34,429 bases of DNA from the IMG/VR virus record IMGVR_UViG_3300036860_000070, positions 1-34,429 of that record; one strand, given 5' to 3'. The DNA is from a virus. Shown here piece after piece: positions 2,092 to 14,583 of the stretch; position 1 is the stretch's first letter; each line of letters opens with the position of its first letter. The translations under genes were made by a program, and so were the position numbers. The notes under the pieces were generated by a model that was given only the letters and a program-made list of their open reading frames with translations, searched no databases and was not told the origin of the DNA.

Positions 2092-2360
2092 CACCGCTCC
2101 TCGCACTGCTCGGCGTACTCGCGCACGCCGCGTTCTTCGATCATGTCGGCGAGCGCCTGCTGCACCTCGAGTGGGGCGCTCTCGTTGATCCACTCGGCGT
2201 GCTTGCCGCGGCGCTGCACGGCGCAGATCGTCACGCGATGCGGACCTGCCACGTAGAAGGCGCGGTAGGGCGTAGGACCGACTTCGCGGTCCTGCTGGAA
2301 CGCGTCGATCGTGATCAATCCACCGAGGGTGAATTCGACGGAGGGGAGCTGATCGGTCAT
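2091..2360 (-). CDS. hypothetical protein, first gene of the left operon (89 aa)
   Basis: This is the first gene after the predicted PL promoter, with a leader of roughly 35 bases. It starts at ATG 2360 with only a weak ribosome site (GGTG). The product has a beta-rich first half (VEFTLGGLITIDAF, YRAFYVAGPHRVTI) and a helical C-terminal half (EVQQALADMIEERGVREYAEQ), so it is compact and soluble. No family is recognised. Being promoter-proximal in a lambda-like left operon, the position would suit an antiterminator, a host-takeover or an anti-restriction protein. Nothing in the sequence singles out one of these. Confidence 0.7.
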   Translation of the reverse strand: MTDQLPSVEFTLGGLITIDAFQQDREVGPTPYRAFYVAGPHRVTICAVQRRGKHAEWINESAPLEVQQALADMIEERGVREYAEQCEER

Positions 2361-2401
2361 GACACCGGTGGCGTGCGTCGCGGTTTGCAGATGGCCGCGA
2401 A

Positions 2402-2429
2402 ACTACACCCGCCAGTTACAACGCGTCAA
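2402..2429 (-). promoter_or_regulatory. candidate leftward early promoter PL
   Basis: On the minus strand a TTGACG -35 box (plus positions 2424-2429) is followed after 16 bases by TGTAGT (2402-2407). Transcription would start near 2395 and run into the 2360-71 operon. A 15-bp inverted repeat (2426-2440) overlaps the -35 box, so the repressor could block it directly. The -35 box matches consensus 5 of 6; the -10 box is weaker. Position and operator make this more convincing than the boxes alone. Confidence 0.55.
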
Positions 2430-2440
2430 CCAGTAGTTGA
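2426..2440. promoter_or_regulatory. candidate repressor operator OL
   Basis: TCAAC-CAGTA-GTTGA is a perfect 5-bp inverted repeat with a 5-bp centre. It has the same 5-5-5 layout and AAC/GTT core as the three sites at 2954, 2997 and 3018. It covers the first bases of the PL -35 box. A weaker copy (minus strand TAACT-GGCGG-GTGTA, plus 2404-2418) lies 22 bp downstream in PL and may be a second operator. Confidence 0.5.
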
Positions 2441-2461
2441 AAGAGATATCGACAAAGGAAC

Positions 2462-2510
2462 AGCCACCACCCAAAGGCGGTGGCTGGCCGGCCGATCACA
2501 ACGGCCGGCC
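2462..2510 (-). terminator. tandem-hairpin terminator after the repressor gene
   Basis: Two hairpins lie between the repressor stop (2533) and PL. The first met by leftward RNA polymerase is a perfect 9-bp stem GGCCGGCCG/CGGCCGGCC (2486-2494 and 2502-2510) with a 7-base loop. Directly after it comes AGCCACC/GGTGGCT (2462-2468 and 2479-2485), followed on the minus strand by a T-rich stretch (GTTCCTTTG). This would stop repressor transcription before it enters the left operon, keeping lysogenic and lytic transcripts apart. The T tract is imperfect, so efficiency is uncertain. Confidence 0.68.
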
Positions 2511-2532
2511 GGGGGGAGATCGATTCAGTGGA

Positions 2533-2961
2533 TCAGGACGAGCGCTTCTTGTGGCGCGGTGCCGGGGGGGTGCGTTTCGCGGAAACGGCGGTGAGCGACT
2601 TGAGATAGTCGATGGCGAGTTGCTGCACGTCATCGTCGAAGATCTGCTTCCAGTGGCGCAGCAGCTCGGCCGTCCGGATGGCGTTGTTATCTGTGTTCGA
2701 AGTGCTTGAATTAGCGCCACTTGCCAGCAGCACCAAGGCCGAGTAGTTGACCCCCAAGTTGCGCGCCTGCAAGCGCAGCGTCGCATCCTTCGGCACCGCA
2801 CCGCGCAACCAGCGGGTGACGGCCTGCGGCTTCGTGCCGCTCGCTTTGGCGAGCAAGGTTTGACCGCCGTGCGTGCTGTCCGTGAATACCCGAACCCATT
2901 CTTTGTATTCGGTGAACTCGGCCGGATCGGGAGCGGGCGGTAACTTCGGCTGATAAACCAT
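2533..2961 (-). CDS. HTH phage repressor (CI-like)
   Basis: The chosen start is ATG 2961 (MVYQPKLPP), giving 142 residues. The frame extends upstream to 3270, but that would run through the divergent promoter and under the Cro-like gene. Residues about 33-58 form a helix-turn-helix of the lambda-repressor type (LLAKASGTKPQAVTRWLRG), and the C-terminal third is helical and ends in a basic tail. No LexA-like peptidase domain with Ser/Lys is visible, so induction would need another route than RecA-stimulated self-cleavage. The gene is divergent from the Cro-like gene, with operators between. A TATCAT -10 box places the transcript start at or next to the A of ATG, implying leaderless mRNA and autoregulation through the site at 2954-2968. 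The repressor role is inferred from fold and layout. Confidence 0.75.
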   Translation of the reverse strand: MVYQPKLPPAPDPAEFTEYKEWVRVFTDSTHGGQTLLAKASGTKPQAVTRWLRGAVPKDATLRLQARNLGVNYSALVLLASGANSSTSNTDNNAIRTAELLRHWKQIFDDDVQQLAIDYLKSLTAVSAKRTPPAPRHKKRSS

Positions 2962-2968
2962 AGGTTTA
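2954..2968. promoter_or_regulatory. operator at the repressor start codon (OR3-like)
   Basis: TAAAC-CATAG-GTTTA lies inside a longer perfect inverted repeat (ATAAACC ATA GGTTTAT, 2953-2969). It covers the repressor ATG (2959-2961) and the edge of its -10 box. Binding here would shut off repressor transcription, as OR3 does for lambda PRM. The symmetry is the best of the four candidate sites. Confidence 0.6.
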
Positions 2969-2995
2969 TGATAGCCGATACGCGGTCGCCCGCAA
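2968..2995 (-). promoter_or_regulatory. candidate repressor promoter PRM
   Basis: On the minus strand TTGCGG (plus 2990-2995) and TATCAT (plus 2968-2973) are 16 bases apart. The predicted start is about 2961, the first base of the repressor ATG. The operator candidate centred at 3004 sits at about -43, the same relative position from which lambda CI at OR2 activates PRM. This is an inference from spacing. Confidence 0.5.
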
Positions 2996-2996
2996 A

Positions 2997-3011
2997 TAAA
3001 TTGGAGGTTGA
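2997..3011. promoter_or_regulatory. operator between PRM and PR (OR2-like)
   Basis: TAAAT-TGGAG-GTTGA has the 5-5-5 layout with 4 of 5 positions of its left half matching the TMAAC half-site. Its right half ends in the PR -35 box (GTTGACG), exactly as OL overlaps the -35 box of PL. Its centre is 21 bp, two helical turns, from the next site at 3018-3032, which favours cooperative binding on one DNA face. Confidence 0.45.
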
Positions 3012-3036
3012 CGATATTAAACTGCGAGTGTAAAAC
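3008..3036 (+). promoter_or_regulatory. candidate rightward early promoter PR
   Basis: TTGACG (3008-3013) is followed by TGTAAA (3029-3034, 15-base spacer) or TAAAAC (3031-3036, 17-base spacer). The predicted transcript start is about 3041-3043, only a few bases before the Cro-like ATG at 3046. It would drive the early-right operon. Two operator candidates cover the -35 box and the spacer/-10 region. Confidence 0.52.
3018..3032. promoter_or_regulatory. operator inside PR (OR1-like)
   Basis: TAAAC-TGCGA-GTGTA is an imperfect inverted repeat (4 of 5 symmetric positions) with the same left half as the site at 2954. It fills the spacer and touches the -10 region of PR, so occupation would block the Cro-like gene and the right operon. 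Confidence 0.45.
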
Positions 3037-3045
3037 CGGCGCATT

Positions 3046-3288
3046 ATGGCTAACGCCGGTCTCACCCTGTGTTACGAGAAGTTCGGAAGTCAGGCGGCGT
3101 TCGCCGAGGAATTCGGCGTTACCCCTCAAGCGCTTACGAAATGGAACAACGACGGTGTGCCGCCGGGCCGTGTTCCCGAGATCGTCAATTTCATGCGGCG
3201 GCGCGGAGTCTTGATCACCTACCACGATCTCAGACCCGACTTGTACCCCCGCGATGTCTCGCGTGTTCATGCTGGCGTGTCTCCATGA
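3046..3288 (+). CDS. Cro/YdaS-like HTH transcriptional regulator
   Basis: This 80-residue protein is divergent from the repressor. Residues about 14-45 carry a helix-turn-helix (GSQAAFAEEFGVTPQALTKW) followed by NDGVPPGRVPEIVNF. This is the pattern of YdaS/Cro-type phage regulators, in which the Val-Pro-Pro turn and third helix follow the recognition helix. Its job would be to repress PRM and PL/PR during lytic growth. The ATG at 3046 has no ribosome site (upstream ACCGGCGCATT) and lies about 3-5 bases after the predicted start, so the message may be nearly leaderless. The stop overlaps the next start (ATGATGA). Which genes it controls is inferred from layout. Confidence 0.75.
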   Translation: MANAGLTLCYEKFGSQAAFAEEFGVTPQALTKWNNDGVPPGRVPEIVNFMRRRGVLITYHDLRPDLYPRDVSRVHAGVSP

Positions 3289-3593
3289 TGAAGGGACCGT
3301 CCAATCCTTGTCCTTTTCGTCGTCGCGTGCGCTCTCGCCGATTGGCGGTGGGGGTATGGCGCACAGGATGGGATGGACGGGGGGCGAAATTGTTGCCGAC
3401 CGGGACCGTGCGCAGAAGCAGGGTGTCCCCGAGTTTGCCCATACGGCATTCGCCTAGCGGTATTTCCGCTCAGCAATTCGACGACTTGCGCGAGCAACGG
3501 CAGGCGTGGCGCGACTGGGAAGAGTACCGCCGCGATCAGGAGCGCTATCGCCGCGAAGAGTGGCCCGGCTATCTGGACGTGGCCGATGTGTGA
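3285..3593 (+). CDS. hypothetical protein with acidic/aromatic C-terminus
   Basis: The frame opens at ATG 3285, overlapping the stop of the Cro-like gene. The C-terminal 45 residues look like real protein: a charged helix QQFDDLREQRQAWRDWEEY followed by more Arg/Glu/Tyr repeats and WPGYLDVADV. The first 55 residues are Arg/Ser/Pro-rich and less convincing, so the true start could be GTG 3422 with a weak AGAAGCAGG site. A competing 33-residue frame at 3356-3457 also has a purine-rich site upstream. No family is recognised. The stop overlaps the next gene (ATGTGTGA). Existence of the C-terminal part is likely; the start is uncertain. Confidence 0.5.
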   Translation: MMKGPSNPCPFRRRVRSRRLAVGVWRTGWDGRGAKLLPTGTVRRSRVSPSLPIRHSPSGISAQQFDDLREQRQAWRDWEEYRRDQERYRREEWPGYLDVADV

Positions 3594-3897
3594 AGTCACG
3601 TCAGACGAGGCCCGCGCCGAACTCGCCGCCGCGCTCGCGCGCGATCTGCGGCAGCTGGATCTGCAGGTTGCCGCCGCGTTCGTCGAATCTCAGGAGCGCG
3701 AGGTCGAGCGCCTGCAGCAGCGCGACCGCCTGCTTGACGGCCTGCGCCTGCAGCTCACCGAAGCCGAGGCGCTGATTCGTCGGCTGCTGACGACGGAGAA
3801 GGACATCGCGCCGCACGACCGGCGGCGCGGTGAGCGGCTGGTCGTGACCATCGGCGAACTCTTGACCGCGAAGCAGGAGGGATCGCCCCGTGCCTGA
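3586..3897 (+). CDS. coiled-coil hypothetical protein (103 aa)
   Basis: The chosen start is ATG 3586 (MCEVTSDEARAEL), which overlaps the previous stop. The frame is open further upstream, but that is the shadow of the neighbour. Residues about 8-75 form one long amphipathic helix rich in Arg, Glu, Leu and Gln (ESQEREVERLQQRDRLLDGL), very likely coiled coil, followed by a basic linker. No catalytic motif is visible. The stop overlaps the next GTG start, and the AGGAGG ribosome site of the next gene lies inside this gene. Similar small coiled-coil proteins are frequent in early phage operons without known function. Confidence 0.68.
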   Translation: MCEVTSDEARAELAAALARDLRQLDLQVAAAFVESQEREVERLQQRDRLLDGLRLQLTEAEALIRRLLTTEKDIAPHDRRRGERLVVTIGELLTAKQEGSPRA

Positions 3898-4219
3898 ACA
3901 GCAGAAAGCGAGAGCGAAGGGACGCAAGATCGGGCGTAACAGAAAGCACCAGGCCACGATCTATCGCGCGACCGACCGCGCGAACAAGAACCGCAAGCGC
4001 CGTATGCGGCGGCACCTGCGTAACCACCCGTCCGACGAACAGGGCGCCGCGCTCTACGAGCGCGAGTACGGCGGCATCGCGCACATCGGCGTCACCGCCC
4101 GCGCGAGCCGCAGGGAGTACCGCAAGTTGCACCCGCGCAAGCGCCGTCGGTCACCGGGCGAGATCGCCGAGGCTATCGCGCAGCGCATCGAAGACGCATC
4201 GAGCAGGGCGGCGTCATGA
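3890..4219 (+). CDS. highly basic protein, possible nucleic-acid binder (109 aa)
   Basis: The start is GTG 3890 with a perfect AGGAGG site 7 bases upstream. The first half is extremely basic (KARAKGRKIGRNRKHQ, then NRKRRMRRHLRNH), the middle has DEQGAALYEREYGG, and the C-terminal half again carries HPRKRRR before a helical tail. Charge and length suggest binding to DNA or RNA. No known fold or zinc motif is visible. It sits between two small early genes and overlaps the next start as ATGA. A phage DNA-compaction or transcription-modulating role is possible, but nothing proves it. Confidence 0.7.
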   Translation: MPEQQKARAKGRKIGRNRKHQATIYRATDRANKNRKRRMRRHLRNHPSDEQGAALYEREYGGIAHIGVTARASRREYRKLHPRKRRRSPGEIAEAIAQRIEDASSRAAS

Positions 4220-4410
4220 CGCAGACAGAGCGGATTCGCCAGCATCTGCTCGCGCGCAAGTCGATCACGCCGTTGCAGGCGCTGAAGCGCTACGGCTGCT
4301 TCCGGCTCGCCGCGCGCATCTGTGAACTTCGTAAGGAGGGCTTGGCGGTTCGCAATATCCCGACCCGCACGCCGGGCGGCGCGATCGTCGCGAAGTATGT
4401 CGTGGACTGA
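4216..4410 (+). CDS. small winged-helix/HTH protein (HTH_39-like)
   Basis: This 64-residue protein opens MTQTERIRQHLLARKSITPL and continues ALKRYGCFRLAARICELRKEG, then a short beta wing (AVRNIPTRTPGGAIVAKYVV). That order (helix, 'SITPLQAL' turn, 'GCFRLAARI' recognition helix, wing) is the signature of a small phage HTH family often placed directly before replication genes. It probably binds DNA and may regulate the replication operon. The start overlaps the previous stop (ATGA) and the stop lies 5 bases before the replication gene. The fold is recognised with good confidence; the target is unknown. Confidence 0.78.
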   Translation: MTQTERIRQHLLARKSITPLQALKRYGCFRLAARICELRKEGLAVRNIPTRTPGGAIVAKYVVD

Positions 4411-4415
4411 ACTGC

Positions 4416-5246
4416 ATGGCCGGGTACACGCCAGTGTTCGACTCCGTCTTTGATGGCACCTTGGGTGGTCGTTGGCCGACGCTGCCGGTGTGGCTCTCGC
4501 TCCTGCCGCTGGCGGACAAGAACGGCGAGATCAACTTGACGCCACAGCAGATTTCGGCGCGCACCGGATGGCCGCTCGATCTGCTGACGAAGGGCATCGA
4601 TGAACTGATGCAGCCGGACGCCGAGAGTCGCAGCAAGGTCGAAGACGGCCGTCGCCTTGTGCTGATCGACCCGGACAGTCGCAGCTGGGGCTGGTACGTC
4701 GTCAATCACGAGCGCTATCGGGAGAAGGCGCGCAAGCAGGCATACGACGCGCAGCGCACGGCGTCGGGCGACGATGCCGCGCGCAAGGCGGCGGCGCGTA
4801 GCAAGTGCCGCGAAGTCCCGGCGTGTCCCGCGAAGTCCCGCGACCTCCCGCTCTCAAACGCAGACACAAACGCAGACACAAACGCAGAGAGCATTACCGC
4901 CGCGGTCGCGGCGCACATCACGAACGACGACGACGGGTTGCTCGCACTCAAAGTCGTGTACCCGCTGCGTGCTGGCAGTCAGCCAATGCGCCGCGCGATC
5001 AAGGCGATACACGCGCGGCTCGAAGAGGGCCACACATGGGAAGAGATCATCGCCGGTGCGCGGCGCTATGCCGCGCACTGCGACGCGATGGAGAAGACCG
5101 GCACAGAGTTCGTGATGCAACTCGCGACCTTCTGCGGACCGGACAAGCACTTCCTGCAGCCGTGGTCGTTTCCCGTGAAACAGCACAACGGGGACAAGAA
5201 ACTGAAGTGGCGCCCGCCTGCGGACGAGGACGATGTACCAAAGTGA
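4416..5246 (+). CDS. phage replication organiser-like protein with winged-helix N-terminus
   Basis: This 276-residue protein has an N-terminal half of about 100 residues typical of phage replisome organisers: the PVWLSLLPLADKNGEINLTP block, TPQQISARTGWPLDLLTKGI (winged-helix recognition region), and a wing ending WGWYVVNHERYREKARK. A low-complexity linker (about 115-165) contains three copies of a 12-base repeat encoding NADT. The C-terminal domain (about 170-270) is helical, with WEEIIAGARRYAAHCD and EFVMQLATFCGPDKHFLQPW, a pattern seen at the C-terminal ends of many phage DnaT/O-like proteins. It should bind the origin and recruit a helicase loader. The next gene, which it overlaps by 14 bases, looks like that loader. 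The origin itself may lie inside this gene, as in lambda O. Confidence 0.75.
   Translation: MAGYTPVFDSVFDGTLGGRWPTLPVWLSLLPLADKNGEINLTPQQISARTGWPLDLLTKGIDELMQPDAESRSKVEDGRRLVLIDPDSRSWGWYVVNHERYREKARKQAYDAQRTASGDDAARKAAARSKCREVPACPAKSRDLPLSNADTNADTNAESITAAVAAHITNDDDGLLALKVVYPLRAGSQPMRRAIKAIHARLEEGHTWEEIIAGARRYAAHCDAMEKTGTEFVMQLATFCGPDKHFLQPWSFPVKQHNGDKKLKWRPPADEDDVPK
4855..4888 (+). repeat. 12-bp direct repeats inside the replication gene
   Basis: The unit CAAACGCAGACA occurs at 4855-4866 and 4867-4878, with a 10-base partial copy at 4879-4888. It is in frame and encodes repeated Asn-Ala-Asp-Thr. It is AT-richer than its surroundings and lies in the middle of the replication organiser gene, where lambdoid phages carry origin iterons. 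It may be an origin, or simply a linker repeat. Confidence 0.7.
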
Positions 5247-5670
5247 CTACGACGAGTTCACCGAACTCATGAAGGATCTGTGCGCCGCCAACGACCGGCC
5301 GGTGTCGGATGAGCGCGTGCGCGCATTCTGGGATGCGCTCAAGCCGTTCCCGTTCGCGCAGATCAAGGCGCGCATCAAGGCGCACATCGCCAAGGGCAAG
5401 AAGTGGCCGCTGCCATCGGAGTTGCGCCCGCCCGAGGATGAGCAGCAGAGGCCGCCGCCGCCGTCGGTCGCGGAAGTGGCAGCGCAGCTTACCGACTACG
5501 TGCTGCGCAACTACGAGCTGACGCCGCACCAACGCGCCGGTTTCAGCTGGACGTTCCTGCATCGGAAAGGCGATCCGTGTACGTGCATCGGCTTGCTCAT
5601 TGCGGCCGACGGCGAGCGGACCGGATACCGGGTGATGGTCGAAGACATGCAACTTGATCGGAGGGTCTGA
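5233..5670 (+). CDS. helicase loader/inhibitor-like replication protein
   Basis: This 145-residue protein starts at ATG 5233, overlapping the replication organiser by 14 bases. The N-terminal 75 residues form a small helical bundle (FTELMKDLCAANDRPVS, FWDALKPFPFAQIKARIKAH) followed by a KKWPLPSELRP motif. This 'FP..I..AI..HI...KWPxPxE' arrangement is seen in phage helicase loaders/inhibitors of the G39P type. After a proline-rich linker comes a C-terminal part with TPCTC-like cysteines (DPCTCIG) and a beta-rich end. It would deliver the host DnaB helicase, since no phage helicase gene is visible nearby. The loader role is inferred from motif and position. Confidence 0.6.
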   Translation: MYQSDYDEFTELMKDLCAANDRPVSDERVRAFWDALKPFPFAQIKARIKAHIAKGKKWPLPSELRPPEDEQQRPPPPSVAEVAAQLTDYVLRNYELTPHQRAGFSWTFLHRKGDPCTCIGLLIAADGERTGYRVMVEDMQLDRRV

Positions 5671-5672
5671 CG

Positions 5673-5975
5673 ATGGCGACGAATCAGCATTACGCGCAGG
5701 CAGTGGGGGAGTCGAAGGCCGAACAAATCGGCTATCTCGATGCGCTCGACAACTCGCTCGGGATGACGCTGGGGCAGCTGCGCGAGCTCGCGCAGCGCGC
5801 TCGGTCGCTCGCTGATCGCGTGCTCGGTCCGCAACCCGAGCCGGTGGCACAGCAACAGGGCACAGGCACGACCGGCAACTATCCCGCGATCCGCCGGCTC
5901 GGCGACGCCGCCGACAACCTGCGCGAACTCGCGCACGGCATCGGCGAGACCATGAAGCGCTTGGAAAACCTGTGA
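5673..5975 (+). CDS. hypothetical helical protein (100 aa)
   Basis: It starts at ATG 5673, two bases after the previous stop, with a GGAGG site overlapping the end of the preceding gene. The N-terminal half is helical (LDNSLGMTLGQLRELAQRAR), the middle is a flexible Gln/Thr/Gly linker (VAQQQGTGTTG), and the C-terminus is a second helix (LGDAADNLRELAHGIGETMK). The two-helix form resembles small phage proteins of unknown function that precede membrane proteins. No family is recognised. Confidence 0.68.
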   Translation: MATNQHYAQAVGESKAEQIGYLDALDNSLGMTLGQLRELAQRARSLADRVLGPQPEPVAQQQGTGTTGNYPAIRRLGDAADNLRELAHGIGETMKRLENL

Positions 5976-5984
5976 GGCACGACG

Positions 5985-6119
5985 ATGAAATGGGATTTCG
6001 TGGGCTTCGTGCTCATCGGGCTGGCGGTGTTCTTTCTGATCCTCGCCGGCTTGGTGCTGTACCGGTCATTGAGACGGACGAGCAGTACCGGCGGTATCTC
6101 GCCGAAGTCGAAACGCTGA
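5985..6119 (+). CDS. small single-span membrane protein (44 aa)
   Basis: ATG 5985 is preceded by GTGAGG at 7 bases, a good ribosome site. It encodes MKWDFVGFVLIGL followed by more hydrophobic residues (one transmembrane segment, about residues 5-26) and a basic, Ser-rich tail (LYRSLRRTSST). Positive charge after the segment predicts a cytoplasmic C-terminus. It lies in a different frame from the overlapping frame 5990-6361, and its start is the better placed of the two. No family is recognised; such short proteins are common in early phage operons. Confidence 0.6.
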   Translation: MKWDFVGFVLIGLAVFFLILAGLVLYRSLRRTSSTGGISPKSKR

Positions 6120-6361
6120 TTGCGCTTGATCCCGAGTTGGGCACCGCTGCCGGTGCGCGTCTGGATCTGCTGGCGACGGTGATCGATGAATACGAGAAGC
6201 GCCGCTTCCCGTTCGAAGTGGGAGAGATCATGAAACTGCGCGCGGAGAGATCGAACGATGACGACGCACACATCGGCAAGGGTGCCGCGTGGTTCGTCTG
6301 GTATGTACTCGCGTTCCTCGCCGTGCTGGCGTTCGGCTTGGCGCTGTGCTCGATGAAGTGA
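5990..6361 (+). CDS. HigA-antitoxin-like N-terminal domain fused to a membrane segment
   Basis: The frame is open from GTG 5972 or ATG 5990 to TGA 6361. Within it, about 50 residues (nt 6068-6220; ETDEQYRRYLAEVETLI, then GARLDLLATVIDEYEKRRFP) closely resemble the conserved N-terminal part of HigA-type antitoxins. In that family the block is followed by a DNA-binding HTH. Here the HTH is missing, and the frame continues into KLRAERSNDDDAH and one hydrophobic segment (AAWFVWYVLAFLAVLAFGLA). No good start codon lies directly before the HigA-like block, and the first 30 residues overlap the 44-residue membrane gene. An internal ATG at 6230 with a GGGAGAG site would give only the 43-residue membrane part. 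It may be a decayed antitoxin, a new fusion, or a small membrane gene over an older frame. Confidence 0.5.
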   Translation: MGFRGLRAHRAGGVLSDPRRLGAVPVIETDEQYRRYLAEVETLIALDPELGTAAGARLDLLATVIDEYEKRRFPFEVGEIMKLRAERSNDDDAHIGKGAAWFVWYVLAFLAVLAFGLALCSMK

Positions 6362-6543
6362 TGCCGGACGAGCTCGCGGAGATCGACCAAGTGCGTTGGC
6401 AACGTGACGTGGCGCGGGCCGAGAACGCGCGGCTGCGCGCCCAGAATGAGCGGCTCGCGCTGCTGCTCAAGTATGCAGAGGCGGCGCTGCGCGAGGAGTA
6501 CCGGCTGCGGATCGAATCGGCAAAGCGGGAGGTCGTGTCGTGA
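6361..6543 (+). CDS. coiled-coil hypothetical protein (60 aa)
   Basis: ATG 6361 shares a base with the previous TGA. The product (MPDELAEIDQVRWQRDVARA, then ENARLRAQNERLALLLKY) is one continuous amphipathic helix with heptad Leu spacing, so it should form a coiled-coil oligomer. The frame is open upstream to 6289 but only as the shadow of the preceding gene. The stop overlaps the next GTG start (GTGA). No family is recognised. Confidence 0.62.
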   Translation: MPDELAEIDQVRWQRDVARAENARLRAQNERLALLLKYAEAALREEYRLRIESAKREVVS

Positions 6544-6818
6544 GTCTCAAAGGTCAGCTGAATCGGTATGTGTGCGAGCGCTGCGGTGGCCAGATCATCA
6601 CGGTGGACGCCGACGACGGCGTGACGCCGTTCGCGTTGATGTGCCGTGCGTCGCCGAACTGTTCGGGCATGATGTACTCGTCGTTCTATCAGGGTGTGCG
6701 CGGCGAGCCCACCTACGAATGGCGCAGGCCGAGCGACGCCGAGTACGCCGGCATGTCGGCGGCGATGCGCGCGCACGTCGATCAGGGCGGGCTCGATCTG
6801 TATCTCCGGGTGGCGTAA
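6540..6818 (+). CDS. zinc-ribbon-like hypothetical protein (92 aa)
   Basis: The start is GTG 6540, overlapping the preceding stop. Residues about 11-43 hold YVCERCGGQII and a later MCRASPNCSG, that is CxxC followed by CxxxxxC, arranged as a zinc ribbon. A tail with YEWRRPSDAEYAGM follows; short proteins with 'RC.G' ribbons and 'W.RP....' tails recur in phage early regions. It may be a small metal-binding or nucleic-acid-binding protein. The exact family is not recognised. Confidence 0.66.
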   Translation: MSLKGQLNRYVCERCGGQIITVDADDGVTPFALMCRASPNCSGMMYSSFYQGVRGEPTYEWRRPSDAEYAGMSAAMRAHVDQGGLDLYLRVA

Positions 6819-6822
6819 AGCC

Positions 6823-7191
6823 GTGGACATCGAGCAGGCGTGCAAGGCGTGGGGCGCCGCGCTCTACAAGGGGCTACCGATCAGCGCCGGCCATGACGCG
6901 GCGTTGCACCTGACGCGCGATGACCTGATGGAGCAGATCGAGCGCGAGCAGGCGGATGTCACCGGCTTGCCGGCGGATGTGATCCCGCTCGCGCGCGCTG
7001 CGACGACGATGCTGCCCGAGCAATACCGCGTGCTGTTCGTTCACTTCGTCTTTCCCTGGCATGCGAAGGGGGACGAGAGGCACGCGCCGAAGTGGCAGCT
7101 GCTGTTCGTCGGCCGCACGCGCTATTTCTATTGCCTCGAAGGCGCGCTATCGCATCTGCGCGGCGCGCTCAGCATGCTGGAGCCGTCGTGA
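6823..7191 (+). CDS. hypothetical phage protein (122 aa)
   Basis: The chosen start is GTG 6823 (VDIEQACKAWGAAL), four bases after the previous stop. The frame is open upstream but overlaps the zinc-ribbon gene. The N-terminal half is helical; a central motif MLPEQYRVLFVHFVFPW is followed by a short basic loop and YFYCLEGALSHLRGALS. The 'P..YR.VL..HYV.P' flavour is reminiscent of small phage proteins near antitermination genes, but I do not claim that family. It overlaps the radical SAM start as GTGA, so the two are likely co-translated. Confidence 0.65.
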   Translation: MDIEQACKAWGAALYKGLPISAGHDAALHLTRDDLMEQIEREQADVTGLPADVIPLARAATTMLPEQYRVLFVHFVFPWHAKGDERHAPKWQLLFVGRTRYFYCLEGALSHLRGALSMLEPS

Positions 7192-8087
7192 CGCCTGTGC
7201 AGAGCGCGTGGATCGGCGGGTTGGCCGAGTGGATGATTGGCGATACCGCGTTCCTGTCGGTCGCATTCACGTGGAAGTTGCCCGAGGCGCGCGCCCGCGC
7301 CGTCTGGTATCGCGCGCTCGGGCAGAAGGTGATCTGCGGTGGGCCGGCCGTGCATGAGCATCCGAAGTATCTCGCTGACGTTGCGGAGTGGCGGCGCGAG
7401 TTCCCGGATGCGGTGCGCTATCACAACCCGGCGGCGACGTTCGCGACGAAGGGCTGCAACGAGCGCTGCTCGTTCTGCAACGTCTGGCGGATCGAGGGCG
7501 ACTTCACCTACTACCCGGAATTCGCCGTGCGTCCAGTGCTCTGTGACAACAATCTCTCGGCGATCGACCCCAAATATCAGGAGCACATCATCGCGCGCTA
7601 CAAGGCGGAGCGGGTGCCGCTGCTCGATGCGAACTCTGGGTTCGAGCCCAAGAGCTTCGATGGCGCAGTCTTCGCGCGTTGGCGCGAGATCAACCGCGGC
7701 CCGTGGCGGTTCGGCTTCGATGAGTCAGGCGAGCGCGAGACGGTTCGCCGCGTGATGGCGATGCTGCGCGGCGCGAGCGTGCCCGCCAAGAAGATCCGCC
7801 CGTATGTGCTGATCGGCAATGAGCCGCCGGACGCGTGCCTCGCCCGCATCCGCGAAGTAATTGAGTGGGGCGGCGAGCCGCACGTGCAACCATTCATTAA
7901 GCACAAGTCGCTGGAGAAGCGCGCGCACGTCAGCCGCGCGATGGGTTGGACTCCGCAACTGCTGACCGATATGGCGCGATGGGCCAACCGCCGCATCTGG
8001 CGGTATGCCGCCTTTGATGACTATCGGCGTTCAGCGAAGACCGAGCGCGCGGATCGCTTCGACAAACAGCAGGGGCTGTTCGTCTGA
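7188..8087 (+). CDS. phage radical SAM protein with cobalamin-domain-like N-terminus
   Basis: The start is GTG 7188, overlapping the previous stop, with GGAG 5 bases upstream; the product is 299 residues. Residues 90-97 carry the radical SAM cluster motif C-x3-C-x2-C (GCNERCSFC), preceded by NPAATFATK as in MiaB/BchE-type enzymes ('T.RGC...C.FC'). The three cysteines should bind a 4Fe-4S cluster that cleaves S-adenosylmethionine. Residues about 20-60 (SVAFTWKLPEARARAVWYRA, GQKVICGGPAV) resemble the end of a B12-binding-like domain, but it is short, with no DxHxxG motif seen, so B12 use is doubtful. Later motifs (DANSGFEP, FGFDESGE, PYVLIGNEPPD, QPFIKHKSLEKR) fit a TIM barrel. It is the last early-right gene. 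The substrate is unknown; DNA or tRNA base modification are plausible. Confidence 0.82.
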   Translation: MTPVQSAWIGGLAEWMIGDTAFLSVAFTWKLPEARARAVWYRALGQKVICGGPAVHEHPKYLADVAEWRREFPDAVRYHNPAATFATKGCNERCSFCNVWRIEGDFTYYPEFAVRPVLCDNNLSAIDPKYQEHIIARYKAERVPLLDANSGFEPKSFDGAVFARWREINRGPWRFGFDESGERETVRRVMAMLRGASVPAKKIRPYVLIGNEPPDACLARIREVIEWGGEPHVQPFIKHKSLEKRAHVSRAMGWTPQLLTDMARWANRRIWRYAAFDDYRRSAKTERADRFDKQQGLFV

Positions 8088-8089
8088 AA

Positions 8090-8133
8090 ACCAGCCTATA
8101 GCCTTGTGCGCCGTGAGCGGCGACCAGCCTATA
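8090..8133 (+). repeat. 11-bp direct repeats flanking a small hairpin
   Basis: ACCAGCCTATA occurs at 8090-8100 and 8123-8133. Between them is a 5-bp hairpin CGCCG-TGAG-CGGCG (8109-8122) abutting the second repeat. The structure fills the 53-bp gap between two convergent genes. It lacks a T tract, so it is not a classic terminator. It could be a factor-binding or recombination site, or mark insertion of the adjacent minus-strand gene. Confidence 0.6.
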
Positions 8134-8140
8134 TAACCTG

Positions 8141-8434
8141 TCAGGAGCACACCTGCCGCCAGACGTAGCGGCGTTGCAGCTCGTCATACACCTGCCGCTG
8201 GTAGCAGCGGCTCGTGCCCACCGGCGGCACGCGCGCGGGGTTCACCGGTTGCACTGATGCCGGCACGACCGGGCATACGCGCGGCGCGCACGCTGGCGCG
8301 ACGTCGGTCGAACTCGAACACAGCGCGCGCGTCTCGCCGTTGACGCAGGCGCAGCGGCAGTCAGCGAATGCGACAGCCGGGCATGCGAACAGAAGAACGA
8401 GCGCGAGCCGGATCAGCATGGGGTTCACGTCCAT
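8141..8434 (-). CDS. exported cysteine-rich small protein
   Basis: This is the only minus-strand gene right of the immunity region. The start is ATG 8434 or, equally likely, ATG 8419 (MLIRLALVLLFACPAV); neither has a strong ribosome site. The N-terminus is a typical signal peptide ending AVAFA, with probable cleavage before Asp-Cys. The mature part of about 75 residues holds around ten cysteines (CRCAC, then ALCSSS, ACAPRVCP, SRCYQR and a C-terminal QVC), and the tail has YQRQVYDELQRRYVWRQV. It should be a disulfide-stabilised periplasmic or secreted protein. No lipobox is evident. Position between early and late blocks and opposite orientation are typical of a lysogenic-conversion gene ('moron'). 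A small Rz1-like role is less likely because no spanin partner is near. Confidence 0.7.
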   Translation of the reverse strand: MDVNPMLIRLALVLLFACPAVAFADCRCACVNGETRALCSSSTDVAPACAPRVCPVVPASVQPVNPARVPPVGTSRCYQRQVYDELQRRYVWRQVCS

Positions 8435-8496
8435 GCCCGCAAACGTAGATGGATGACGGGCGGCGTTCCGTGACGCGCATCGCGCGGCGTTGAGCG

Positions 8497-8508
8497 AAGT
8501 CCGGACTT
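8497..8508. promoter_or_regulatory. palindrome AAGTCCGGACTT upstream of terminase genes
   Basis: This perfect 12-bp palindrome lies in the 219-bp gap between the divergent Cys-rich gene and TerS. Its 10-bp core AGTCCGGACT recurs exactly at 15552 and 21078, also between genes. A GATAAT-like box follows about 45 bases later (near 8535-8545). It may be a late-promoter element or operator. The rest of the gap holds no gene I can support. Confidence 0.55.
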
Positions 8509-8653
8509 GCGTCTCACTTGTTCCAATCTCCGTGCATGCTGCTGATAATCCTTTTGCGCCGGGCAAAAGCGGCGCCGCGTTGTTTCCATGTCGAGATCGG
8601 GAACGCGGAGAGCGGGCCAACTCTCCGCGCTTCCCTTCAGCGCAGACAGGATC

Positions 8654-9184
8654 ATGGCCCGTTCCGCTTCGAACAAGTTCACCGATAAGCAGCAGCGGTT
8701 CATCGACGAGTACTTGGTCGATCTGAACGGCACGCAGGCTGCGATCCGCGCCGGCTACAGCCGCAAGACCGCGAACGAGATCGCGGCCGAGCTCCTAGCA
8801 AAACCTAGCATCCGCGCCGCCGTCGACGCGGGACTTGCGAAGCGGCGCGAGCGCACGGAGATCAGCCAAGACTACGTGCTGCGCACGATCCACGAGACCG
8901 TGGAGCGCTGTCGGCAGGTTGCGCCGGTGCTCGATCGCAAAGGCTTCCCGGTCGTAGTTGAGACGCCGAAGGGCAGCGTCGCGCCGGCGTATGTGTTTGA
9001 TGCGAAGGAAGTGCTGAAGGGCTGCGAACTGCTCGGCCGTCACTTGGGCATGTTCCCGACCAAGGTTGAGCACTCGGGCGAGATCCGCCGGAGCGATGCG
9101 CGCGAGCTGAGCGACGAAGAGTTGCTGCTGATCGCCGCCGGCTTCATGGCGGACGGTTCGAACGTGCCCGAGACGACGAACTGA
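8654..9184 (+). CDS. terminase small subunit (TerS)
   Basis: The chosen start is ATG 8654 (MARSASNKFTDKQQRF), preceded by AGGA. An alternative in-frame ATG at 8588 has no ribosome site. The product of 176 residues carries the Terminase_2-type HTH block at about 8-60: TDKQQRFIDEYLVDLNGTQA, then AIRAGYS and NEIAAELLAKPSIRAAV. The rest is helical with a beta insertion (VAPVLDRKGFPVVVETPKG). TerS binds the packaging site and stimulates TerL. It lies 10 bases before TerL, as usual. The cos or pac site could be in or just upstream of this gene. Confidence 0.88.
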   Translation: MARSASNKFTDKQQRFIDEYLVDLNGTQAAIRAGYSRKTANEIAAELLAKPSIRAAVDAGLAKRRERTEISQDYVLRTIHETVERCRQVAPVLDRKGFPVVVETPKGSVAPAYVFDAKEVLKGCELLGRHLGMFPTKVEHSGEIRRSDARELSDEELLLIAAGFMADGSNVPETTN

Positions 9185-9194
9185 TCCGGAAGCA

Positions 9195-10757
9195 ATGGCA
9201 GTCGCCGTCGATGAAATCCACGCCGCCGTTGCCGCGAGAGAGTTGCTACAGCGCCGCGCGGCGCGCCGCACGCTGCTGCCGTTCGTTGAGTACACGACGC
9301 CGAAGTGGACCGCCGGGCGACCGCATCGGGTCATGTGTGAGCAATTGGATCGCGTGGAGCGCGGCGAGATCGACCGGCTCATGCTGCTGCTGCCACCGCA
9401 GCACGGGAAATCAACCGTCGCGTCCAAGCGCTACCCGGCGTTCGCACTTGGGCGGCAGCCGACGCACGACATCATCTCAGCCTCCGCGACGCACGATCTG
9501 GCCGAGGACTTCGGGCGGGAGGTTCGTAACTGCATCTCGGGGCAGGAGTGCGGCAACGTCTTCCGCGATCTCATGCTCGCCGAGGATTCGCAGGCCAAGG
9601 GACGCTGGCAGACGAAGCAGGGCGGCTCGTATTACGCCGTCGGCATTGGCGGGGCCTTGTTCGGCCGCGGTGCCACTCGAGCCATCATCGACGATCCGTT
9701 CGCCACGTGGGAGGACGCACAGAACAAGCTGGCCCGTCAGCGCGTGTGGGACTGGTACACGGGCACGCTCTACAACCGCGTGCGACCTGGCGGTGCCATC
9801 GTGCTGATTCAGCACCGCATGCATCAGGACGATCTCGCCGGGCGGCTGATCGCGCAGATGCAGGCAGGTGCGGACAAGTGGGAGGTCGTGGAGTTGCCGG
9901 CGCTCGGCAGTTACGGCGCGCTCTGGCCCGAGCGCTACGACGTGCCGGCGCTGGAGCGGATCAAGCGCAACACGCCCGAGTTCAAGTGGTCATCGCTCTA
10001 CCAGCAGAAGCCGCTGTCGGAAGAGGGCGGCATCATCAAGCGCGCGAAGTGGCGGCTGTGGCCGGCGCGGGAGAAGTTGCCGCGCTTCCTGTTCGTGATC
10101 ATGTCGCTCGACACCGCCTACACGGAGGAAACCTACGACCGGCGGGCGGCCGAGGCGGACTTCACCGCGTGCTCGGTGTGGGGCGTGTTCGAGCATGAGA
10201 AGGTGCGCAACGCGATGCTGCTCGATTGCTGGGAGGAACGGCTCGGCTTCCCGGAGTTGATCGAGCGCGTCAGGCGTGAGCGGGATGCGAGCTACGGGGA
10301 TGCGGACGAGCCGTTGCTCCGTCCGCTCATCGACGTCGCGCATCGAGCGTCGCACCAGGGCCGAAAGGTCGACCTGCTGGTGATCGAAGAGAAAGGGTCG
10401 GGCATATCGCTGCGTCAGGCGCTCGCCAAGGAGGGCATCCTCACCCGGCCCTACAACCCCGGACGCGCCGACAAGCTGGCGCGGCTGCATCTGGTGTCGC
10501 CGATGTTCACGCACGGCCGCGTGTGGGCGGTCGAGAGCGACAAGATGCCCGGCCGCCCGCGCACGTGGGCCGACCCGCTCATCACGCAGGTGTGCTCGTT
10601 CGCGGGCGAAGGGTCGATCCCCTTCGACGATCTCATGGACTCAGCCGTGCAGGCGCTGCGCGTGATCATGGATGAGTTCTTGGGGCCGCTGACGTTCAAG
10701 CCGGCACCGCATGACAAGGGCTACGTGCCGCCGAAGGTGAACCCGTATGCACAGTGA
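9195..10757 (+). CDS. terminase large subunit (TerL), ATPase-nuclease
   Basis: This 520-residue protein is normal length for TerL. The ATPase domain has Walker A PPQHGKST (67-74), Walker B with adjacent acidic residues AIIDDPF (163-169), and a coupling motif IVLIQHRMHQDDLAGR (about 202-217). The C-terminal RNase H-like nuclease has the first acidic position in VIMSLDTAY (Asp306), the second at LLVIEEKGSG (about 395-403), and the third in PFDDLMDSAV (about 477-485). It pumps DNA into the prohead through the portal and cuts it. GGAAGCA lies before ATG 9195. It overlaps the methyltransferase gene by 11 bases, an unusual neighbour since portal normally follows TerL. Confidence 0.93.
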   Translation: MAVAVDEIHAAVAARELLQRRAARRTLLPFVEYTTPKWTAGRPHRVMCEQLDRVERGEIDRLMLLLPPQHGKSTVASKRYPAFALGRQPTHDIISASATHDLAEDFGREVRNCISGQECGNVFRDLMLAEDSQAKGRWQTKQGGSYYAVGIGGALFGRGATRAIIDDPFATWEDAQNKLARQRVWDWYTGTLYNRVRPGGAIVLIQHRMHQDDLAGRLIAQMQAGADKWEVVELPALGSYGALWPERYDVPALERIKRNTPEFKWSSLYQQKPLSEEGGIIKRAKWRLWPAREKLPRFLFVIMSLDTAYTEETYDRRAAEADFTACSVWGVFEHEKVRNAMLLDCWEERLGFPELIERVRRERDASYGDADEPLLRPLIDVAHRASHQGRKVDLLVIEEKGSGISLRQALAKEGILTRPYNPGRADKLARLHLVSPMFTHGRVWAVESDKMPGRPRTWADPLITQVCSFAGEGSIPFDDLMDSAVQALRVIMDEFLGPLTFKPAPHDKGYVPPKVNPYAQ

Positions 10758-11562
10758 GCCCGCGCCGACGGTCATCGGGAACGCGACGCTGTACTGCGGG
10801 GACGCGCTGCGCGTGCTGGCAGCACTGCCCGATGAATCCGTCGACTGCGCCATGACCGATCCGCCCTACTCATCGGGCGGCATGCTGCGCGGGGATCGCA
10901 TTCAGGACGTACACACGAAGTACGTGAACAGCGACAGCGCCTCGGGGAACCTGCTGACAGGGTTCACCGGGGATAACCGCGACCAGATCGGCTACTGGTT
11001 CTGGACGGCGCTCTGGCTCGGCGAGCTGCGCCGCGTGCTCAAGCCGGGTGCCGTGGTCGGGCTGTTCACGGACTGGCGGCAGCTCCCGGTGACCACGTCG
11101 TCGTTGCAGGCTGGCGGCTTTGTCTGGCGCGGGATCATCCCGTGGCACAAGCCCGCCGCGCGCTGTCAGCAGGGGCGCTTCACGAACAACTGCGAGTACG
11201 TCGTGTGGGGCACGAACGGTCCGCGCGAGTTGGAGGGAAGCCCGCTGCCTGGCTTCTATTCGTGCAACGCGCCTCGCGGGGAGGATCGCGAGCACATCAC
11301 GCAGAAGCCGGTGGAGCTGATGGCGCGTCTCATCAGCGTGACGCCGCCCGGCAGCGTTGTGATCGACCCGTTCATGGGCAGCGGCACGACCGGCGTGGCG
11401 TGCATGGACACCGGGCGCTTGTTCGTCGGCATCGAGCAAGAGCAGTCGCACTTCGCGACCGCGTGCGAGCGGTTGGACCAGACGCAGCGGCAGGTGCGGC
11501 TGTTCGATGGTGCGACCCCGCTGCGCCCGATGCAGGCGGACTTGGGATGGGAAGCCGCATGA
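10747..11562 (+). CDS. DNA adenine-type methyltransferase inside the packaging block
   Basis: This 271-residue protein is a beta-class DNA methyltransferase. The catalytic motif IV is DPPY (38-41) near the N-terminus, and the SAM-binding motif I is FMGSGT (209-214) near the C-terminus, preceded by HITQKPVEL (motif X). DPPY favours N6-adenine over N4-cytosine methylation, which usually has SPPY. The short recognition region (about 45-180) suggests a stand-alone enzyme with a short target. Its start lies inside the TerL end and its stop is one base before the XF1762-like gene, so the three are probably co-translated. Likely roles are protection from host restriction, marking of packaging sites, or preparing a base for further modification. 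No cognate endonuclease is visible. Confidence 0.9.
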   Translation: MHSEPAPTVIGNATLYCGDALRVLAALPDESVDCAMTDPPYSSGGMLRGDRIQDVHTKYVNSDSASGNLLTGFTGDNRDQIGYWFWTALWLGELRRVLKPGAVVGLFTDWRQLPVTTSSLQAGGFVWRGIIPWHKPAARCQQGRFTNNCEYVVWGTNGPRELEGSPLPGFYSCNAPRGEDREHITQKPVELMARLISVTPPGSVVIDPFMGSGTTGVACMDTGRLFVGIEQEQSHFATACERLDQTQRQVRLFDGATPLRPMQADLGWEAA

Positions 11563-11563
11563 G

Positions 11564-12001
11564 ATGCTTGAAGTGATCCCGATCACGCTCCGCGAAGCGA
11601 GCGCCTACGTGGCGCAGCACCACCGGCATCACAAGCCGCCGCAGGGTGCGTTGTTCGCCGTGGCGGTGAGCGATGGCGCAGCGGTGCGCGGCGTTGCGGT
11701 GATCGGCAAGCCGGTCGCCCGAATGAACGATGACGGCTTCACCGTCGAGATCACGCGCTGTTGCACGGACGGCGCGCGCAATGCGTGCTCGATGCTCTAC
11801 CGCACCGCGTGGCGCGCGGCGCGGGCGATGGGATATCGCCGCTGCATCACGTACACGCTCCCCGATGAGGGTGGCGCGAGCCTGCGCGGCGCCGGGTTCC
11901 GGTGCGTAGGGGAAGCCGGCGGCGGTTCGTGGTCTCGCACCATTCGCCCGCGCGTGGATGTTCACCCGCTGCAGGCGAAGTTGAGATGGGAGGTCGCATG
12001 A
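11564..12001 (+). CDS. XF1762-like, GNAT-type phage protein
   Basis: The chosen start is ATG 11564 (MLEVIPITLREASAYVA), one base after the methyltransferase stop; the product has 145 residues. The order of motifs (HHRHHKPPQG near 19-28, VAVSDGAAVRGVAVIGKPVA, RCCTDGARNACSMLY, RRCITYTLPDEGGASLRGAG, then GGGSW) is that of the family named after Xylella XF1762, found in many phages beside methyltransferases. The beta-strands, the RCCTDG turn and the final 'GF..VG' strand suggest a GNAT acyltransferase fold, as in phage Mu Mom, which modifies adenine in DNA. Whether this protein acts on DNA is unknown. The stop overlaps the portal start as ATGA, so it sits within the head operon. Confidence 0.72.
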   Translation: MLEVIPITLREASAYVAQHHRHHKPPQGALFAVAVSDGAAVRGVAVIGKPVARMNDDGFTVEITRCCTDGARNACSMLYRTAWRAARAMGYRRCITYTLPDEGGASLRGAGFRCVGEAGGGSWSRTIRPRVDVHPLQAKLRWEVA

Positions 12002-14583
12002 GCGCACAGCAGGAAGAAGTGCAAGGCGCGGTCGTAGAGCTCGACGAGGAGCAGGCCGACGTCGAGGAAACCCCGGAGGGCGGGGCGATCGTCCGCTTGG
12101 AGCAGGCAAACCAGGTCGGCGCGGAGGCGGACTTCTACGCCAACATCGTCGAGGAGTTCGACGAGCCGCTGCTGGACAAGTTGGCGCTCGACCTGTTGGA
12201 AAAAATCGACTACGACCGCAAGGCGCGGGAGAAGCACGACAAGAAGTACGAGGAAGGGATCAAGCGCACCGGGCTCGGCGATGAAGCGCCGGGCGGCGCG
12301 CAGTTCCAAGGGGCGAGCAAGACCGTCCACCCGATGCTCATGAAGGCATGCGTGGAGTTCGGCGCGCGCGAGATCAAAGAGCTGTTCCCGCCCTCCGGCC
12401 CGGTGAAGGACTTCATCGCCGGCACGCCCGACAAGAAGCGGGTCGAGAAAGCGCGGCGCATCTCGAAATACATGAACTGGCAGCTGACCAAGCAGATGAA
12501 GGAGGCGCGGTTCGAGGTTGAGCAGTGCCTGCCGCAGACGGCGCTTGGCGGCAGTCAGTACCTGATGATCGTCCACGACACGTTCAAGAACCGCCCGGTC
12601 CTCACGTTCGTGCAGAGCGGGCGCGTGCTGTTGCCGTTTGCGGCGTCCTCGCTGTACAGCTCCGAGCGCGTCACGTACATCGAGGACATCACCCGCGCCG
12701 AGTACGAGCGGCGCATCCGCGCGGGCATCTATCGGGACGTGGACGGGCTGCCGCCGGCACAGGTGCCCGAGCCGTCCGGATCGGTCAAGGCGAACCAGAA
12801 GGTCGAGGGCAAGCAGCCGAACCCGTACAACGAGGACGGCGTGCGCCGCGTGTATCGGGTGGCCGTGCATTCGGACATCGAGGCAGACGATGAGGACGAT
12901 GACGACGACGATGACGCGGCCGAGGGAGATGCCCCGTACCTGATCTCGGTCGACGAGTCATCCCGGCGCGTCCTGGCCGTCGTGCGCAATTGGGAGCGCG
13001 ATGACGATGCGCGCGAGGGCATGGACTGGATCATCGACATGCCGTTCGTGCCTTGGGACGGTGCGCAGTCGGTCGGCTTCGCGCACATGATCGGCTCACT
13101 CGCGGGATCGACGACCGGCATCGTGCGCGCGCTACTCGATGCGGCGCACACGAGCAATCTGCCCGGCATGGTCGGACTCAAGGGAATGAATATGTCGGGG
13201 CAGTCGCTGCAGATCGACCCGACGCAGATCACGCTGATCGAAGGAACGATGGGGCAGGATGACATCAGAAAGTTGCTGATGGCGCTGCCGTTCAATCCGC
13301 CGTCCGCCGTGCTGCTGCAGATGCTCGGCATCCTGACCGAGTACGGCGAGAGCGTCGTGCGGATGACGTTCGAGAGCTTGGCCGAAGCGAACCAGAACAT
13401 GCCGGTCGGCACGACGCTCGCGCTGATCGAGCAGGGGCTGAAGGTCTACGGCTCGATCCATAGCCGCCTGCACGATGCGATGAGCCGGCTGCTTGCGATC
13501 CTGTACCGCATCAACCGGATGTATCTGACCGACGAGGAGGTCAAGTTCGACACGGGCGAGCACATCGTCTATCGCGCGGACTTCCAAGGGCCGATGGACG
13601 TGATTCCGGTCTCCGACCCGGAGATCTTCTCCGACATTCAGCGCTTCGCGCAGATGCAGGTGGTCGCGGATCGGGCGAAGGGCAACCCGCTCTACGATCA
13701 GCGCGCGGTCGAACTCATGATCCTGCAGCGGAGCAAGATCCCGGATGCCGAGCGCTTGCTGGTGCCGGTAGCGAAGCCGGACCGCATGAACGCGGTCGCC
13801 GAGAATGTCGCGGCCTCGATGGGCAAGCCGGTCGCCGCCTTCCCCGACCAGGACCACTTGGGCCATCTGCAGGCGCATCTGGACTACATGCAGTCCCCGG
13901 TGCTCGGCTACCTGCCGATCATTGCGCCGACGCTCATCCCGATCATGCTCGGGCACATCCGCGATCACATCGCGATGTGGTACGCGACGCACGTGTACGA
14001 GCAAGCGCGCGAGGCGGTGCAGAAAGCCGGCGTGTCCTTCGGCGGGGCGGGTGACATGGACGAGATCCTGAAGGACAAAGACCCGCGCACACGCGCCGAG
14101 GTCGACAAGTTGCTGGCGTCGCTGTCCCCGGATGCCGTGCAGGCGGCGGCACAGACGTTCCAGAAGGTGCCGCCGATCATCGAGCAGGCCATGCAGGTCA
14201 TGCAGAAGTACGCGCCGCAGCCGCCCGCAGATCCGGCCGTGGCCGTGATGCGCGAGAAGACGCAGAGCGACGCGCAGGCCAAACAGGCACAGCTGCAGCA
14301 GCGCTCGCAGGAGACCGACAAGAAGTCGCAGACCGATCTCGCGAAGGAAACGCTGCGGCAGGATCGGGAGGACCGCCGGCTGGCGGCCGAGATCCAAGCC
14401 GAAGCCGCGGTCGAGGCCGAGCGGCAGCGGGCCGAGACCGCCCGCAAGCTGGTCGACGCCGAGACGCGGCAGGAGATCAACACCGCCGACAACGCCACCG
14501 CGCTGTCGATCGCCGAGGCCGAAGTGCTGGACAACCAGAAGATCGGCGTATCCACCGGGTCCGGGATCAATCCGCAGCCATGA
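11998..14583 (+). CDS. portal protein (head-tail connector), 861 aa
   Basis: The start is ATG 11998 with GGGAGG 5 bases upstream, overlapping the previous stop. Length and motifs match the large portals of P22-like and Bcep22-like short-tailed phages. There is an acidic N-terminus, KTVHPMLMKACVEFGAREIK (about 108-127), LFPPSGPVKDF, MNWQLTKQMKEARFEVEQ, a central SLAGSTTGIVRALLDAAHTS block, and RMTFESLAEANQNMPVGTT. The C-terminal about 120 residues are Gln/Lys/Glu-rich coiled coil (for example REKTQSDAQAKQAQLQQRS), likely the barrel inside the capsid. A run of Asp residues at about 297-309 (DDEDDDDDDD) is unusual. Twelve copies should form the DNA entry ring bound by TerL and later by the tail. 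Confidence 0.88.
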   Translation: MSAQQEEVQGAVVELDEEQADVEETPEGGAIVRLEQANQVGAEADFYANIVEEFDEPLLDKLALDLLEKIDYDRKAREKHDKKYEEGIKRTGLGDEAPGGAQFQGASKTVHPMLMKACVEFGAREIKELFPPSGPVKDFIAGTPDKKRVEKARRISKYMNWQLTKQMKEARFEVEQCLPQTALGGSQYLMIVHDTFKNRPVLTFVQSGRVLLPFAASSLYSSERVTYIEDITRAEYERRIRAGIYRDVDGLPPAQVPEPSGSVKANQKVEGKQPNPYNEDGVRRVYRVAVHSDIEADDEDDDDDDDAAEGDAPYLISVDESSRRVLAVVRNWERDDDAREGMDWIIDMPFVPWDGAQSVGFAHMIGSLAGSTTGIVRALLDAAHTSNLPGMVGLKGMNMSGQSLQIDPTQITLIEGTMGQDDIRKLLMALPFNPPSAVLLQMLGILTEYGESVVRMTFESLAEANQNMPVGTTLALIEQGLKVYGSIHSRLHDAMSRLLAILYRINRMYLTDEEVKFDTGEHIVYRADFQGPMDVIPVSDPEIFSDIQRFAQMQVVADRAKGNPLYDQRAVELMILQRSKIPDAERLLVPVAKPDRMNAVAENVAASMGKPVAAFPDQDHLGHLQAHLDYMQSPVLGYLPIIAPTLIPIMLGHIRDHIAMWYATHVYEQAREAVQKAGVSFGGAGDMDEILKDKDPRTRAEVDKLLASLSPDAVQAAAQTFQKVPPIIEQAMQVMQKYAPQPPADPAVAVMREKTQSDAQAKQAQLQQRSQETDKKSQTDLAKETLRQDREDRRLAAEIQAEAAVEAERQRAETARKLVDAETRQEINTADNATALSIAEAEVLDNQKIGVSTGSGINPQP

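Follow-up and report, generated by a model that had tools for sequence, protein, structure and literature searches.

In a virus sequence of 34,429 nt (IMG/VR record IMGVR_UViG_3300036860_000070; this whole stretch of DNA is referred to as the window), the genes for TerL and the portal protein flank a translationally coupled pair of genes. One encodes a DNA methyltransferase (MTase) and the other a protein of the XF1762 family, which, according to profile comparisons and a predicted structure, is a compact relative of Mom, the DNA-modifying protein of phage Mu. The explanation that we consider probable is that the pair represents two independent late DNA-modification enzymes, which are carried as anti-restriction cargo within the packaging-gene operon.

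The TerL, MTase, XF1762 and portal genes are read in one direction and are all translationally coupled (Table 1). TerL and the MTase gene overlap by 11 nt (10747-10757), a single base (11563) separates the stop codon of the MTase gene from the ATG of XF1762 at 11564, and the TGA stop codon of XF1762 (11999-12001) is located in an ATGA shared with the start of the portal gene (11998), which is immediately preceded on its 5' side by a ribosome-site-like GGGAGG. An in-frame ATG at 11507 would lengthen the XF1762 open reading frame; the relatives begin at about 11564. The coordinates and overlaps of these four genes in the original prediction, which was made from the sequence alone, proved to be exact, and its assignment of a methyltransferase with DPPY and FMGSGT motifs and of an XF1762 protein was confirmed by profile matches; the matches identifying the MTase, XF1762, TerL, TerS and the portal protein are far beyond chance. 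Based on the gene order, expression of the pair together with the packaging genes is plausible. Elsewhere in the window, the start of a gene for a radical SAM protein overlaps the preceding gene, and genes for a Mu Gam-like end-protection protein and a RecT-like annealing protein are located on the opposite strand.

Table 1 Features of the window and of the interval between the TerL and portal genes in related phages. Positions refer to the window or to the respective locus.
Sequence	Feature	Positions	Strand	Profile match or content
Window	Genes for Mu Gam-like (end protection) and RecT-like (annealing) proteins	526-1757	-	
Window	Radical SAM protein (CxxxCxxC)	7188-8087	+	phrog_9298 (3.1e-11)
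Window	TerS (context)	8588-9184	+	PF03592 (1.9e-26), phrog_51 (5.7e-35)
Window	TerL	9195-10757	+	phrog_38 (1.5e-86), PF03237 (1e-8)
Window	DNA methyltransferase (N6A/N4C), 271 aa	10747-11562	+	PF01555 (1.8e-30), phrog_67 (4.8e-69)
Window	XF1762-family protein, predicted compact Mom-like GNAT fold, 145 aa, pI 9.8	11564-12001	+	NF045478 (2.6e-61), phrog_1384
Window	Portal protein	11998-14583	+	phrog_1216 (2.7e-8)
L101	TerL-portal interval	4250-7900		PcfJ-domain protein
L103	TerL-portal interval	3920-6900		ART-PolyVal, Pfam above cut-off
L104	TerL-portal interval	6730-10150		Sequence homologous to ART-PolyVal cargo
L105	TerL-portal interval	5200-8510		Sequence homologous to ART-PolyVal cargo
L106	TerL-portal interval	650-3300		ART-PolyVal, Pfam above cut-off
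L107	TerL-portal interval	950-3310		GDSL hydrolase
Phage DSL-LC04	TerL-portal interval			PcfJ-domain protein
ctpbd312	TerL-portal interval			GP88-domain protein
HTVC027P and 023Pt_psg01	TerL-portal interval			Unnamed long proteins
Caulobacter phage RW	TerL-portal interval			tRNA
Caulobacter phage RW (L181)	Two annotated large-terminase genes with a SAM-dependent methyltransferase gene between them	2445-5247		

The MTase harbors the motifs DPPY (residue 38) and DPFMGSG (residue 207), i.e. in the beta-type order with DPPY before FMGSGT, and its score of 107 bits against PF01555 (cut-off 26.7), together with both motifs, places it in this family. The match to phrog_67 covers residues 9-254, and the nearest solved structures are DpnA (5HEK, "adenine specific DNA methyltransferase", 1.2e-21) and CcrM (6PBD, 1.9e-21). 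Judged by these sequence features, the protein is an intact N6-adenine/N4-cytosine DNA methyltransferase. Such enzymes are already common in phages, and matches to the MTase were obtained in 1245 records; phage methyltransferases of PHROG 67/PF01555, for example BPP-1 bpm and gp64 of Gordonia phage Sidious, are 48-54% identical to it over 85-90% of the length. Counts of tetranucleotide palindromes gave no clear pointer to the MTase target; CTAG was the most under-represented one, as is common to many bacterial genomes.

The XF1762 protein matches the NCBIfam model NF045478 ("XF1762_fam") with 205.6 bits (cut-off 50) over positions 2-143 of 143, and phrog_1384 ("Mom-like DNA modification protein") with an E-value of 5.6e-35. 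Since Mu Mom matches phrog_1384 as well (7.8e-84), this PHROG is common to XF1762 and Mom. Taken alone, the window protein remains below the cut-off of the Pfam model Mom (PF25680; E 0.0099, 16 bits, cut-off 27.1), but the same model matches 41 of 49 XF1762 relatives (best 3e-11), whereas the general GNAT model (Acetyltransf_1) matches one, at 0.023. Comparing the XF1762 profile (49 proteins) with a Mom profile (8 proteins) by hhalign resulted in a probability of 97.6% (E 2.9e-12). Against single Mom sequences, the XF1762 profile reached 91-95% for those of P12002L, CRP-902 and HermioneGrange, and 3% and 5% for Mu Mom and TCUEAP3 Mom, respectively, both of which were aligned over 117 columns. 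The controls yielded 2.7% for RimJ and at most 0.4% for each of RimI, SpeG and the two non-GNAT proteins RsmC and MTase; with values of at most 3%, RimI, RimJ and SpeG were rejected as better homologues of XF1762.

A sequence search of solved structures, conducted with XF1762 either alone or as a profile, gave no meaningful match, so that the link to Mom required profile or fold comparison. We built an AlphaFold (AF2) model of XF1762 from the window and locus sequences (mean pLDDT 92.5, pTM 0.85). In a Foldseek search with this model, rank 1 of 1125 PDB matches was chain B of 8BV8 (E 1.6e-7, TMq 0.75), the title of which refers to phage Mu Mom as "inactive mutant S124A". Many GNAT acetyltransferases acting on proteins or small molecules follow with similar TM-scores, so the predicted fold by itself points to a GNAT protein only, and it is the ranking together with the sequence profile that points to Mom. 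The connection to Mom that had been proposed from the sequence, with fold comparison as the suggested check, is thus supported by the top PDB match, with which the PHROG, Pfam and profile evidence agrees.

Mu Mom is a methylcarbamoylase, which puts a bulky acyl-derived group on adenine N6 (N6-carbamoylmethyl-type adenine). In the hhalign alignment, H20, E62, R65, N73 and S76 of XF1762 are paired with H58, E108, R111, N121 and S124 of Mom, respectively. Among the XF1762 relatives H20, E62, R65 and S76 are invariant (49/49) and N73 is present in 46 of 49; in the eight aligned Mom proteins H58, E108, R111 and N121 are invariant and position 124 is Ser or Thr, the active-site Ser of Mom being represented in XF1762 by S76. 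Mu Mom (8BV8, PF25680, PHROG 1384) is like XF1762 in being phage-encoded, in its GNAT fold and in five residues, all of which are kept in XF1762. However, it comprises 241 aa compared to 145 aa, and the alignment stops at about Mom residue 170, such that the C-terminal third of Mom (~170 to 241), which holds the Mom-invariant Y217 and P240, is missing from XF1762. Moreover, the Asp of the Mom SFAD motif, which is conserved in the aligned Mom proteins, is Leu (Leu99) in 46 of 49 XF1762 relatives, and the HYS motif of Mu Mom reads HRH in XF1762. The two genes also differ in their context, since Mu mom is overlapped by the com gene and located at the genome end, whereas the window XF1762 gene lacks such an overlap and is located in the packaging operon. 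The XF1762 family is basic (median pI 9.65), which fits a nucleic-acid substrate. As judged from the profiles and the structural model, XF1762 is a compact relative of Mom that is Mom-like in its core and forms a separate branch rather than being an orthologue. We know of no enzyme of this branch that has been assayed, and no paper in the literature collection searched mentions XF1762 by name.

Relatives of XF1762 are found in 79 viral contigs and are mostly 50-67% identical; RefSeq names some of them, including those of Min1 and ZF40, "Mom-like DNA modification protein". In contrast to the window, the eight named isolates examined show neither a direct coupling to an MTase gene nor a position between TerL and the portal gene. 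The immediate neighbours, which were chosen by a simple longest-ORF rule, are very mixed and include recombination genes, PAPS reductase, terminase, portal, endolysin and integrase genes. The top viral fold match of the XF1762 model is A0A6J5LU57 (BFVD), an 877-aa ART-PolyVal-like viral protein that contains an XF1762 domain (45% identity), so that polyvalent proteins delivered by the virion may carry the Mom-like domain as well.

Next to the identity of the two proteins, their location has to be considered. The original prediction took the portal gene as the normal successor of TerL and regarded the pair as inserted between them. TerL and portal genes are indeed contiguous in CRP-901, Pag-Yong1 and Pam1, but the rule does not hold for other phages with which the window shares its portal or TerL and which carry different genes at this position (Table 1). 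Within this lineage, the interval between TerL and the portal gene is a cargo slot of variable content, and the MTase gene and the Mom-like gene are one more filling of it, which is the sense in which the insertion was correctly recognized. Proteins of the ART-PolyVal type are regarded as virion-delivered anti-host effectors (Iyer et al. 2017, PMC5512222), and the cargo slot of four relatives accordingly holds an anti-host cargo type. The ART-PolyVal and PcfJ proteins occupy the same interval in phages that share the portal protein of the window; they are predicted to be effectors delivered by the virion, whereas the window pair would act on DNA, either ahead of packaging or in the course of it.

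With respect to the flanking genes, the window portal protein is 44% identical over 99% to a protein of Caulobacter phage RW, the closest isolate by portal, and 38-51% identical to the portal proteins of L101 and L103-L107; a portal-based search of viral contigs for close phage relatives recovered one distant locus only. In phage RW, a SAM-dependent methyltransferase gene is located between two annotated large-terminase genes (Table 1), and its product shows no similarity to the window MTase. The window TerL is a mosaic. Its nuclease half (residues 276-519) shares 54-56% identity with the TerL proteins of L102-L105, whereas its ATPase half (residues 1-275) does not match the same proteins significantly (E 0.8 or worse); on the level of the sequence, the terminase gene thus gives the impression of an internal exchange of domains.

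If the two enzymes acted in sequence, the MTase would make m6A or pick the site, and the Mom-like enzyme would build a bulky group there. The tight coupling in the window is in line with such a pathway, as is the recurrence of coupled or adjacent pairs, since a PF01555 gene directly adjoins XF1762 in 3 of 50 XF1762 virus records, i.e. upstream with a 4-nt GTGA overlap in L034, downstream in L042, and downstream and overlapping in L043 (these MTases are only 31-33% identical to the window MTase, or different). In addition, a methyltransferase gene adjoins the true Mom gene of Polaribacter phage P12002L, and two methylase genes are located a few genes upstream of XF1762 in the Mycobacterium prophage prophiGD51-1. 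Using gene positions entered by hand from the PF01555 survey of the 50 records, we also found that the two genes are at most 5 kb apart in 10 of the 14 records with both (4.6 expected, p 0.0009). However, the excess within 1 kb was not significant (3 vs 1.2 expected, p 0.1), and counted among the XF1762-bearing viral records only, PF01555 is absent from 36 of 50, although these records may be fragments. Likewise, within the fetched DNA around MTase relatives XF1762 was present at one of 20 loci (L087). Across phages, the two genes thus do not co-occur as an obligate two-gene system, and an obligate MTase partnership was rejected on the basis of the 14/50 records; rather, MTase and XF1762 genes show a tendency to lie close together, which is common for genes of DNA modification, and each occurs alone, too. 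To our knowledge, catalysis by Mu Mom needs no phage methyltransferase. We consider a sequential hypermodification improbable, and we regard with the same scepticism its bolder form, in which XF1762 would be a minimal Mom with a different adenine modification, the coupled MTase would provide the site choice or the first methyl, and both would make up a two-enzyme hypermodification module in the packaging-gene cargo slot. The original suggestion of a joint pathway that includes the radical SAM enzyme encoded upstream is not supported by these records, and the occurrence of phrog_9298 in 0 of 50 XF1762 virus records led to the rejection of this enzyme as a third partner; we know of no radical SAM partner gene needed by Mu Mom.

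The main rival to two DNA-modification enzymes is that XF1762 is a RimI-like protein acetyltransferase acting on host or virion proteins, to which the MTase would be unrelated. ART-linked GNATs of polyvalent proteins have been classed as RimI-like, with protein substrates being predicted (Iyer et al. 2017, PMC5512222), and the ART-PolyVal-like A0A6J5LU57, which shares the XF1762 domain, possibly belongs to that GNAT family; the PDB fold matches after Mom are, furthermore, mostly protein or small-molecule acetyltransferases. However, the profile comparison fails for RimI, RimJ and SpeG and succeeds for Mom relatives, the Pfam models favor Mom over Acetyltransf_1 within the family, and the residue at the position of Mom S124 is invariant, and we therefore consider a protein substrate unlikely, albeit less so than any other alternative. 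The MTase could also regulate the Mom-like gene or packaging, by analogy with phage Mu, in which mom expression depends on Dam methylation of the promoter region (PMC10434257). Considering that the MTase gene is located upstream in the same operon as XF1762, that no possible com gene lies between them, and that XF1762 usually has no methyltransferase neighbour, this appears the least likely of all. Finally, the pair could be passenger DNA, i.e. a moron that was acquired at a permissive site and hardly benefits the phage, which would agree with the very varied neighbourhoods of XF1762 and with the empty slot in CRP-901 and Pag-Yong1. Yet both genes are intact, their catalytic residues are conserved and their coupling to essential genes is exact, which points to selection on the pair and renders a mere passenger improbable.

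For the two independent late enzymes that we favor, we infer the DNA substrate, the chemical product, the timing and the anti-restriction effect as follows. The MTase would recognize a target sequence of its own and methylate it at adenine N6 (or cytosine N4). The XF1762 enzyme would, like Mu Mom, attach a bulkier acyl-derived group to adenine N6 at other sites, and would rely for this on the invariant H20, E62, R65 and S76 (the counterpart of Mom S124) at a Mom-equivalent active site. Because both enzymes are presumably translated together with TerL and the portal protein, their substrate would be concatemeric DNA shortly before its packaging, so that progeny DNA would withstand many restriction enzymes on arrival in the next host. 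That the TerL-portal slot of relatives often holds anti-host cargo types was counted in favor of this explanation; the absence of the Mom C-terminal third and of the SFAD Asp, the weak match to single Mu Mom and the many acetyltransferase fold matches were counted against it.

The designation of XF1762 relatives as "Mom-like" in RefSeq and PHROGs and the location of Mom beside a methyltransferase in P12002L are already known. What is new is that evidence from fold and residues directly supports a compact Mom branch, that MTase and XF1762 are coupled within a packaging operon, and that the TerL-portal interval was recognized as a cargo slot. The widespread XF1762 proteins, which are without a function in the NCBI family model, hereby gain support at the level of fold and residues as compact Mom enzymes. 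In many phages, among them named isolates such as Min1, ZF40, Kapi1 and prophages of Mycobacterium abscessus, they would then represent anti-restriction factors that modify DNA and are amenable to testing, and the TerL-portal slot of this lineage would be a place to seek further counter-defence genes.
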